Assembly (NCBI GenBank): GCA_913057985.1
Contig: CAJXPL010000001.1
Span: 62,001 to 126,000, forward strand
From: an uncultured Synechococcus sp.
GTDB taxonomy: Bacteria > Cyanobacteriota > Cyanobacteriia > PCC-6307 > Cyanobiaceae
Direction of reading: 5' to 3'
DNA: 64,000 nucleotides
Positions within the stretch are counted from its first letter, which is position 1; each line of letters begins with the position of its first letter. A model generated the notes under the pieces. It was not told the origin of the DNA. It searched no databases and saw only the letters and a list, made by a program, of their open reading frames with translations. Of the stretch, positions 11,454 through 62,442 are shown one piece after another. A program made the translations under genes and the position numbers.

Positions 11454-12703
11454 GCCTGCATCGACTGCACCATCTGGGGAAGCATCGCCAAACCCAGGGG
11501 GTATCCATTGCGCTTGCGCGCCTCATCGAGGATCGCGGGGGGCAGGGTCACCCCGAGCCGCTTCAGCACCGCATCGCCCACATCCATGCGGTCGAGGGTG
11601 CCGGAGGGAAGGCCCGCAGCACTCATCACCAACAGGCGTCCCTGGGAGGCCGCCTCCAAGGCCGGCACCGCCTCCACCAGGGGAGCCGAACTGGCGATGG
11701 ACGGCAGTTCAGTGAGGGGGCGCAGATGATCCTCGAGGCGCTGTTGGTCCCATTGCTGCACCGGCAGCAGTTTCAAGGGTTGATCGTCAATCCAACCCAC
11801 CCAACGGCCGCTCTTGCAGACGAGCACCCAATCGGCAGGTCCCTCCGCCTCGCTGGCGATCAGCCGCAGCTGACTGAGGCGCCGCAAGGTCTGATCTGCC
11901 TCCAGCACGCGGAGACGTTTGCCTGCCGCAGCCTCCACCTTCAACTCCCGAAGCACCGTCTGCAACTGCAGCATCTGGGTCTGACTGCGGTTGGCACTCA
12001 GGCCGAACCAACCGATCAACATCAGCAGGACGCCGTTGAGCCCCCAGCCCTGCCAGAGCAGAACACCACCCAACAGGATCATCAGCATCGACAAAGCCCG
12101 TCCGGACGCCGAGGCCACCTGAACGCCTTTCTGCTGACTACCGCTCAGCTTCCAAACCAAGGCCTTGAGGATCAGCCCGCCATCGAGGGGCAGCCCGGGC
12201 AAGAGATTGAACAAGCCGAGCATCAAGTTGAGCAAACCCACCTGGCTCAACAACTGTGTGGCCAAGGGCTGGGTGTCCGAAAGGGCTGCAGCCCCCGCCA
12301 GCATCCCAAAGGCCAACACCAAACTCACGATCGGGCCAGCCGCCGCAATGCGCAGATTGCCCATGGCGGTGGGGCATTCCTTCTCCACCCGCGCGATGCC
12401 GCCCAGATGAAACAGGGTGATGCTCAACACCTTCACCCCTTCCCGCAGGGCCATCAGGGCATGGCCCAATTCATGCAGCAGCACGGAGCTGAACAGCAAC
12501 AAGGTGGTCAGCAATCCCAGCCCCCAACTCGCCGTTGCCGAGGCCGTTGTCGCGTAGCGGGACTGAAACAACGTGGTGAAGATCGCCACGGCAAACAACC
12601 AGCTGGGCTGGAGCCGCAGGGGAATTCCGCCAATCTTGAGCACCTGCCAGCCCTCTCCCACCGCCAATCCCGTCGTGTGCCGCTGCCGCGGACTGTCATC
12701 CAC
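11411..12703 (-). CDS. Site-2 protease family zinc metalloprotease (M50)
   Basis: An intramembrane protease of the type that cleaves anti-sigma factors or membrane-bound regulators. The 430-residue product begins at a GTG at 12703. HELGH at residues 77-81 supplies two zinc-binding His and the catalytic Glu. NLLPGLPLDGG contains Asp174, the third ligand. Six or so hydrophobic segments fill the first 230 residues. The C-terminal 190 residues are soluble and may hold a degenerate CBS-like pair. Only 20 bp separate it from divergent trpF. Confidence 0.92.
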   Translation of the reverse strand: MDDSPRQRHTTGLAVGEGWQVLKIGGIPLRLQPSWLFAVAIFTTLFQSRYATTASATASWGLGLLTTLLLFSSVLLHELGHALMALREGVKVLSITLFHLGGIARVEKECPTAMGNLRIAAAGPIVSLVLAFGMLAGAAALSDTQPLATQLLSQVGLLNLMLGLFNLLPGLPLDGGLILKALVWKLSGSQQKGVQVASASGRALSMLMILLGGVLLWQGWGLNGVLLMLIGWFGLSANRSQTQMLQLQTVLRELKVEAAAGKRLRVLEADQTLRRLSQLRLIASEAEGPADWVLVCKSGRWVGWIDDQPLKLLPVQQWDQQRLEDHLRPLTELPSIASSAPLVEAVPALEAASQGRLLVMSAAGLPSGTLDRMDVGDAVLKRLGVTLPPAILDEARKRNGYPLGLAMLPQMVQSMQAQSAEPDASSTSNS

Positions 12704-60401: not shown

Positions 60402-61778
60402 ATGACTCCTGCTGCCACCAAAGCTGCCAAGCCGGACATCGTTCTTCTGGCCAATGCTGACGGCAAGGTGAAGGAAGTCGCCAAGAGTTCCGACAAAGAG
60501 GCCAAGAAAACTCCTGCACGCCGACGAACCAGCAAGGCAAGCGCCAAGGACCTGAGCGCCGCAGCCGACGAACTGCTCGCCGCTGCAGATCAAGCCAAGG
60601 CCTCGGGAACCACCAAAAAGGCTGCAGCGAAAACCACCAAGGCCAAAACCACAACGAAAAAGGCCACCACAACCAAGAAGGCAGCCACCGCCAAGAAGAC
60701 CGCCACCAAGGCATCAACAGCCAAAGCAGCAGCAGCGAAGCCAACCGCCGAGGAGAAAGCCAAAACAGCAGCTGCTGAGAAGGAAGCCAAGGCAAAAGCC
60801 CTGGCCAGCATCAAGATCGGCCCCAAAGGCATTTACACCGAAGACTCCATCCGGGTTTATCTCCAGGAAATTGGTCGGATCCGCCTGCTGCGTCCCGACG
60901 AAGAGATCGAACTGGCCCGCAAAATTGCCGATCTTCTCTATCTGGAGGAACTGGCCGCTCAATTTGAAAGCGACAACGGCCGGGAACCCGACAACAAAGA
61001 GTGGGCTGCCTTGGTGGAAATGCCGCTCATCCGCTTCCGCCGGCGCTTGATGCTGGGCCGACGGGCCAAGGAAAAGATGGTGCAATCCAACTTGCGCCTG
61101 GTGGTCTCGATTGCCAAGAAGTACATGAATCGGGGCCTGAGCTTCCAAGACCTGATTCAGGAAGGAAGCCTTGGCCTGATTCGTGCAGCCGAGAAGTTCG
61201 ACCACGAAAAGGGCTACAAGTTCTCCACCTACGCCACCTGGTGGATTCGCCAGGCCATCACACGCGCCATCGCCGACCAAAGCCGCACCATCCGCCTGCC
61301 GGTGCACCTCTACGAAACGATCTCCAGGATCAAGAAGACCACCAAGGTTCTCTCCCAGGAATTCGGCCGCAAGCCAACGGAAGAGGAAATCGCGGAATCG
61401 ATGGAAATGACCATCGAAAAACTGCGCTTCATCGCCAAGAGCGCACAGCTGCCGATCTCCCTGGAGACCCCCATTGGCAAGGAAGAGGATTCCCGCCTGG
61501 GCGATTTCATAGAAGCCGACATCGAAAATCCCGAGCAGGACGTTGCTAAGAACCTGCTTCGTGAAGACCTGGAAGGTGTGTTGGCCACCCTCAGCCCCCG
61601 CGAACGCGATGTGCTGCGCCTGCGCTATGGCTTGGACGACGGGCGGATGAAGACCCTCGAGGAAATTGGCCAGATTTTTGACGTGACCCGTGAACGGATC
61701 CGTCAGATCGAAGCCAAGGCCCTGCGCAAATTGCGCCACCCCAACCGCAATGGGGTGCTCAAGGAATACATCAAGTAG
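60402..61778 (+). CDS. rpoD: Principal sigma factor SigA/RpoD (group 1)
   Basis: Directs RNA polymerase to most promoters. The 458-residue product has an N-terminal Lys/Ala/Thr-rich stretch (about 67-133). Region 1.2 ([17 protein letters not shown]), region 2 ([30 protein letters not shown] and [22 protein letters not shown]), region 3, and region 4 follow. Region 4 has [27 protein letters not shown]. The core matches cyanobacterial SigA; the tail is unusual and is described as a finding. Confidence 0.96.
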
Positions 61779-61787
61779 GGATCTAGA

Positions 61788-61814
61788 CCCGAGGCTGCTC
61801 ACAACAGTCTCGGG
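61788..61814 (+). terminator. Hairpin after rpoD
   Basis: CCCGAGGCTG pairs with CAGTCTCGGG (one mismatch) around a 7-base loop, 10 bp past the rpoD stop. There is no strong U-tract, so termination may be factor-assisted. Confidence 0.6.
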
Positions 61815-61863
61815 AGTAATACATAAGTACATTCGCCCTAGCTCAATCCCCCGCTGGGCTCCT

Positions 61864-61869
61864 ATAACG
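61864..61869 (+). promoter_or_regulatory. -10 element of the Yfr1-like RNA
   Basis: TATAAC, 7 bases before the inferred 5' end at 61876. A convincing -35 element is not visible. Confidence 0.5.
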
Positions 61870-61875
61870 AGCGTG

Positions 61876-61940
61876 AGGGAATTGAGACGCCCTCCTCACA
61901 CGGAAGAGATCAAACCCCGGTCTGAGACTGGGGTTTTCCT
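61876..61940 (+). ncRNA. yfr1: Yfr1-like small regulatory RNA
   Basis: Yfr1 is a short trans-acting RNA conserved in cyanobacteria, with an unpaired CUCCUCACAC motif between two stem-loops. Here CTCCTCACAC is at 61893-61902. A 5' stem GAGGG/CCCTC (61876-61880 with 61891-61895) comes just before and partly overlaps it. A terminator hairpin AAACCCC...GGGGTTT with a U-tract follows (61913-61938). The resulting length, about 65 nt, fits Yfr1. The motif's usual first A is a C here. It lies between rpoD and a convergent hypothetical gene. Confidence 0.72.
61913..61940 (+). terminator. Rho-independent terminator of the Yfr1-like RNA
   Basis: AAACCCCGGTC pairs with GACTGGGGTTT (one G-T pair) around TGA, followed by TTTTCCTTT. 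This is the clearest intrinsic terminator in the window. It is too far from rpoD (about 135 bp) to be that gene's primary terminator. Confidence 0.85.
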
Positions 61941-61950
61941 TTGGTCAAAA

Positions 61951-62442
61951 TCAAAGATCAGTGTGACGACTGTCCTGTGCAGCCTCAAAAGTCTCCGTAA
62001 ATTCCTGAAAAGCACGTTTCAGGCGCTCCACCGGCGTTTCTTCAAGGGGGCACTCCTGGCGTGTTTCCAGCGCATAAGCCTGCAGCAAGCGGGCATCTGG
62101 CTCAAGAACGGAAGCCACTGCTCCCTTGAACAGCACCAGATTGTGCTGCGACGTCAGCCCCACCAGATAAGGCTGAAGCTGCCAACTGTTCACCAGGCCA
62201 CCCTGCCCCGATTCCACGACGGAACGCACCAGACGAGGCCGCAGCAGTTGGTAAGCATGGTCTCCATCGCGATCTGTCGTGTGGCGAAGCCGCGCCATCA
62301 AGACATCGCCACTGCACAACAGGATCAGACGAATGTTCCCTTCGGCCACCAAGGGGAGCATGATCACCTGCTCTTGAGGCTCAGGGGCTGCCGAGCCAAT
62401 CGCTCCCGCCTGACGAACGCCATTGACGACGGGTCCGGGCAT
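61951..62442 (-). CDS. Conserved hypothetical protein
   Basis: 163 residues from the ATG at 62442 (MPGPVVNGVRQAGAIGSAAPE). It appears soluble, mixed alpha/beta, with no signal or membrane segment: EGNIRLILLCSGDVLMARLRHT, YQLLRPRLVRSVVES, and a C-terminal helix ERLKRAFQEFTETFE. It converges on the Yfr1-like RNA and is divergent from hemC. No function is assigned. Confidence 0.72.
   Translation of the reverse strand: MPGPVVNGVRQAGAIGSAAPEPQEQVIMLPLVAEGNIRLILLCSGDVLMARLRHTTDRDGDHAYQLLRPRLVRSVVESGQGGLVNSWQLQPYLVGLTSQHNLVLFKGAVASVLEPDARLLQAYALETRQECPLEETPVERLKRAFQEFTETFEAAQDSRHTDL

Follow-up and report, generated by a model that had tools for sequence, protein, structure and literature searches.

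The locus between rpoD and its convergent neighbour

We analysed a stretch of 64,000 nucleotides (hereafter the window) from an uncultured Synechococcus sp., in which the region between rpoD and a convergent gene contains the following features, numbered from the first letter of the window:

60402–61778, plus strand: rpoD, principal sigma factor, upstream gene (NCBIfam NF005643, 736 bits)
61821–61831, plus strand: upstream site ACATAAGTACA, with AAGTAC at 61825–61830 (position −50); probable transcription-factor site
61863–61868, plus strand: putative −10 element TATAAC; TATAA kept at the same spacing in the aligned intact copies except that of genome G031
61875–61942, plus strand: small RNA gene, predicted transcript of ~63–68 nt (supported by its conservation and by 97.1 bits with the covariance model R1)
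61875–61911, plus strand: near-invariant 37-nt core GAGGGAAUUGAGACGCCCUCCUCACACGGAAGAGAUC (35–37/37 identity in 24 genomes)
61875–61894, plus strand: predicted 5' hairpin GAGGG-AAUUGAGACG-CCCUC, 5/5 pairs invariant in 26 distinct sequences
61891–61901, plus strand: Yfr1-type motif CCUCCUCACAC, whose first position is C instead of A and whose 5' part is inside the hairpin
61912–61942, plus strand: intrinsic terminator, an 11-bp hairpin (61912–61936) plus a U-rich tail, with two-sided changes in relatives at 5/11 pairs
61951–62442, minus strand: convergent gene with weak similarity to DUF6561 (Pfam PF20198, E = 1.6e-5, just under the cut-off)

The order at 61863–61942 is TATAAC-GAGCGT-GAGGGAATTGAGACGCCCTCCTCACACGGAAGAGATC-AAACCCCGGTCTGAGACTGGGGTTT-TCCTTT, and every part named in a preliminary description of this site (5' stem-loop, motif, terminator and upstream TATAAC) is present there. 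The predicted start is G61875, the first G of GAGGGAAUUGAG, instead of the 61876 given earlier. The 10-mer CTCCTCACAC occupies 61892–61901, between the 5-bp 5' hairpin and the 11-bp terminator. The tail of the small RNA (sRNA) lies ~9 nt from the stop codon of the convergent gene, and the linkage of the two is kept across the genus.

Conservation, promoter and distribution

The 10-mer CTCCTCACAC occurs once in the window. This word alone proves nothing, since shuffled sequences are expected to contain 0.25 copies per window (at least one copy in 21 of 100 shuffles); it is conservation that settles the reality of the gene. The strand 61871–61943 folds better than its shuffles (z = −2.5). A query of 531 bases spanning the site matched relatives; alignments of the element covered 17 genomes at first and 27 later. 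Its core is identical at 35–37 of 37 positions in 24 genomes, against 80–98% identity, in the other 23, for the adjacent 3'-end DNA of rpoD, a protein gene that is highly conserved in its own right. Core variation is limited to one position of the hairpin loop and a few positions 3' of the motif; neither CUCCUCACAC nor the stem GAGGG/CCCUC varies in intact copies. As the 5' stem does not vary, covariation is silent about it, neither for nor against. Of the 11 terminator pairs, 5 have changed at both positions, a signal destroyed by sliding the pairing partners. An almost letter-for-letter conserved sRNA gene of marine Synechococcus is thus well supported by the alignments, and its terminator hairpin is, judging from the same comparison, maintained by compensatory changes.

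A generic promoter and terminator scan of the site found nothing, and no −35 box is present. The terminator was probably missed because its stem takes up part of the U-run, failing the tail rule; we interpret the hairpin as a terminator because it is conserved and is accompanied by longer U-runs in relatives. An open GTG frame running through the element was rejected as coding, since its start codon is not conserved and the varying length of the terminator disrupts the frame. Sub-threshold Rfam matches (rnk_pseudo, anti-hemB and Betaproteobacteria_toxic_sRNA) were also discarded; they scored far below the cut-off and involved mainly the terminator hairpin.

TATAA is found 6–7 nt upstream of the core in all intact copies except that of G031 (CATAA), with variable intervening bases. 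AAGTAC is located at −50/−51 in 22 of 24 genomes (AAGTTC and AGGTAC in the remaining two), a position that it keeps even when foreign DNA lies immediately upstream. TACATAAGTACA has no second copy in the genome with up to one mismatch, and none of the LexA, NtcA and RpaB boxes is a good fit to ACATAAGTACA. The distance from rpoD to the element is 57–105 nt in eleven genomes, 200–245 nt in two, and 0.6–10 kb in the other eleven, in which the element is separated from the rpoD stop codon by other DNA. These distant copies retain the −10 box, the upstream site, the terminator and the convergent gene as neighbour, which excludes a 3' UTR of rpoD; the −10 box and AAGTAC keep their place despite insertions of 0.6–10 kb, so that the element is a separate transcription unit and not the tail of rpoD. 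Comparison of the genomes shows a putative −10 box, a terminator, a fixed upstream site and extreme constraint.

The rpoD 3' end is itself an insertion site, the insertion point being equivalent to positions 61776–61791 of the window. One relative (G020, C3:134500-143500, locus L099) carries directly behind rpoD an 8-kb island that encodes an integrase (PHROG 1), a VapE-like primase/helicase and a resolvase; it resembles a phage satellite and has imperfect ACATCAAG repeats at both ends. Its left junction is common to a second genome (G032, C1:1565900-1574900, L100), and other relatives have 0.6–10 kb of different genes at the rpoD 3' end.

Within the genus, the covariance model R1, built from the element (97.1 bits for the window copy), matched 21 of 24 genomes sampled, in one of them through a decayed copy. 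Elsewhere in the family, 58 genera were sampled and no match was convincing: one of 28.9 bits corresponded to an ordinary terminator, and the weak matches L058 and L059 were unrelated terminators. The decayed copy (L057, G006, C1:1626047-1626115) is the weakest match of the genus, with 51.9 bits; neither the motif nor the TATAA box is left in it. This decay suggests that the RNA is dispensable in at least one lineage. The remnant is still in place behind rpoD. A 19-mer core pattern searched in 84,980 species was found essentially only in marine Synechococcus, one of the sources being labelled merely cyanobacterium; matches in one Spirochaetaceae genome and one viral contig lacked the rest of the core and were therefore attributed to chance. 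As far as sampled, the element is apparently restricted to one genus of marine Synechococcus.

A Yfr1-type motif and its candidate partners

We think that the element probably encodes a trans-acting sRNA with a Yfr1-type motif, specific to this genus; a promoter of its own, downstream of rpoD, would drive its synthesis as a terminated transcript of ~65 nt. By analogy with Yfr1, this RNA would base-pair via CCUCCUCACAC, a pyrimidine-rich mimic of the anti-Shine-Dalgarno sequence, with purine-rich ribosome-binding regions of mRNAs. The preliminary description had pointed out that the first A of the motif is replaced by C, a change that is real and fixed: ACUCCUCACAC is replaced by CCUCCUCACAC in all aligned copies, and the altered letter pairs in the 5' stem. 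Its further suggestion that the motif is partly paired in this stem agrees with the predicted folding. In the modelled structure, the invariant 5' hairpin would lock the first half of the motif, pairing would begin at the exposed UCACAC, and the hairpin would have to open. With its first half locked, the motif would be entered from UCACAC, and pairing would be weaker or more selective than that of Yfr1.

Yfr1 represses a porin mRNA reporter; Yfr2 binds Yfr1/Yfr10, and it relieves this repression (PMC6778093). The genome contains three Cyano-1/Yfr2 (RF01701) loci, on contigs C10, C3 and C39 and none of them in the window; the third scores below the family cut-off. Their 5' regions (GUGUGAGGAG, UUUGUGAGGA and GUUGUGAGGA) are complementary to most of the motif, and all three have, near the 5' end, UUGUGAGGA or GUGUGAGGA, the complement of UCCUCAC. 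Opening the seed UCCUCACA is predicted to cost 4.6 kcal/mol in the element versus 0.0 in Yfr1, ACAC and mostly UC of the motif being accessible. Full-length duplex energies between the element and Yfr2 were no better than those of shuffles; as they ignore internal folding, we used accessibility-corrected windows. Pairing with the first (best) Yfr2 copy then reached −7.9 kcal/mol, with 7 of 300 shuffles as good, and with the second −5.4 kcal/mol, which is not significant (37 of 300 shuffles); the third gave no accessibility-corrected pairing at the motif. Yfr1 is predicted to pair with Yfr2 more strongly, reaching −12.1 kcal/mol. The weakest step of the proposed mechanism is that Yfr2 5' ends of the UGUGAGGA type would bind the element, which would thus join the Yfr1/Yfr10/Yfr2 network as another node of the Yfr1 type; as deduced from Yfr1, Yfr2 could compete for the seed.

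The genome contains no excess of complements of CCCUCCUCACAC (9 sites versus 5 for the control, three of the nine being antisense of the element or of Yfr1, or a Yfr2) and, for this reason, we propose no target. Two porin genes, one of which begins near a contig end, have no complement near their start. An inverted repeat resembling GACA-GCC ... GGCTGTCC is common to the promoters of two Yfr2 copies (upstream regions L081 and L082) and may be the GntR site (CGRE1) described in the literature; the region upstream of the window element showed no GACA-GCC-type repeat.

More tentatively, it is possible that the element is a hairpin-gated Yfr1-type regulator whose seed, half-hidden in the invariant stem, would respond only to partners able to invade from UCACAC (for example Yfr2 5' ends or selected mRNAs), and which would thereby act as a conditional node of the network. 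Few regulatory RNAs occur in nearly all cyanobacteria, Yfr1 and Yfr2 being two of them, and a further motif-bearing RNA, confined to one abundant ocean genus, would extend their network. The DNA of the element is more conserved than the neighbouring protein genes and is missed by searches with the full 11-mer; its alignment offers a model for metatranscriptome searches. As a natural experiment, it could also show what burying part of a seed in a stem does to target choice.

Alternative readings of the element

We regard it as unlikely that the element represents, in Synechococcus, the Yfr10 family, whose definition is loose. Additional RNAs with the Yfr1 motif are known (Yfr10, Yfr12, Yfr18, Yfr104 and Syr5; PMC6778093, PMC2518516), and those of the Yfr10 type are defined mainly by the motif, with varying sequence, structure and place. 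Since Yfr10 has been verified by Northern blot in Synechococcus WH8102 (PMC6778093), the element might even be the RNA of that blot and, hence, already known. However, Yfr10 is described with the same motif as Yfr1, whereas the element, at a locus separate from Yfr1, has only 10 of the 11 motif letters and is predicted to hold them outside a hairpin loop. Moreover, the complete 11-mer, ACTCCTCACAC, occurs at a different terminated locus of the same genome (L006:1470-1535, minus strand; G000:C35, motif at 12147–12157), which combines the 5' stem GUCG/CGAC with a strong terminator and is conserved in six relatives. This locus on contig C35 is probably the Yfr10 homologue and a better Yfr10 candidate than the window element. 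The core letters, searched in the texts of papers, retrieved nothing relevant, and the Yfr1-motif sRNA gene behind rpoD is apparently undescribed so far; it may have been detected earlier in Synechococcus transcriptomes.

It seems improbable that the element is a protein-binding RNA or decoy, in which a protein would recognise the invariant hairpin with its loop AAUUGAGACG and the Yfr1-like motif would be incidental. The invariance does extend beyond what a seed needs, covering the hairpin loop and GGAAGAGAUC 3' of the motif, but no known protein site was recognised in it, and a coincidental motif is unlikely because this genome has it at two further sRNA-like loci with terminators.

Very doubtful, in our opinion, is a cis-acting role, either as the 3' end of rpoD or as an antisense RNA directed at the mRNA 3' end of the convergent gene. 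Its proximity to the convergent stop codon, and the fact that it stays beside that gene when islands enter, would fit an antisense function. Against a cis role stand its own putative promoter, the location of rpoD 57 nt to 10 kb away, the 37 invariant nucleotides, which include the trans-pairing motif and lie furthest from the convergent gene, and a minus strand without a U-run at the hairpin in this genome.

Finally, the identity proposed in the preliminary description, Yfr1 itself, is already refuted as orthology, and a paralogue of the Yfr1 gene is hardly credible: the general layout (5' stem, CUCCUCACAC, terminator) and the length are similar, but the Rfam Yfr1 covariance model (RF01116), the check suggested there, does not match the element at its gathering score (38 bits) or even at E = 10, the shared letters are 10 of 11 only in a motif that is no longer intact and is partly paired, nothing is alike outside the 10-mer, and the canonical Yfr1 of the genome (67.5 bits with RF01116) lies elsewhere, between guaB and trxA. 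That description was right in suspecting that the place behind rpoD is not the known one, as guaB-yfr1-trxA is the published location of yfr1 for all marine Synechococcus (PMC2190773, Table 2).

Comparison with Yfr1, Yfr10 and Yfr2

The probable trans-acting sRNA behind rpoD resembles Yfr1 in having a 5' hairpin, CUCCUCACAC and a G+C-rich 3' terminator with a U-tail, in its size of ~60 nt and its intergenic location, and in the pairing with purine-rich sites that would be expected of it. In Yfr1, the motif lies in an unpaired stretch of 16–20 nt between two stem-loops, the 5' stem having 6–10 bp, whereas the 5-bp 5' stem of the element is predicted to take in CCCUC of the motif and thus departs from this arrangement. 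The ultraconserved 11-mer ACUCCUCACAC stands unchanged in 31 of 31 Yfr1 RNAs (PMC2190773). Yfr1 is an abundant RNA of 54–69 nt, whereas the 63–68 nt of the element are a prediction. Yfr1 occurs in nearly all cyanobacteria (above the cut-off in 247 of 300 genomes of the family), in contrast with the single genus of the element, which is present in addition to Yfr1.

With the Yfr10 family the element shares the character of an additional sRNA bearing nearly the whole Yfr1 motif and complementary to Yfr2 5' ends. Unlike in that family, the first letter of its motif is altered in all copies, and the motif is predicted to form the 3' arm of a hairpin and a linker instead of a hairpin loop. The Yfr10 gene is located upstream of a Yfr2 gene, an arrangement described for high-light Prochlorococcus only, whereas the element is not beside Yfr2; its sequence and position are unusually conserved, in contrast with Yfr10 homologues, which are described as poorly conserved. 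Yfr2/Cyano-1 (RF01701), with its motif of opposite sense and a different fold, is a probable partner of the element and not a relative.
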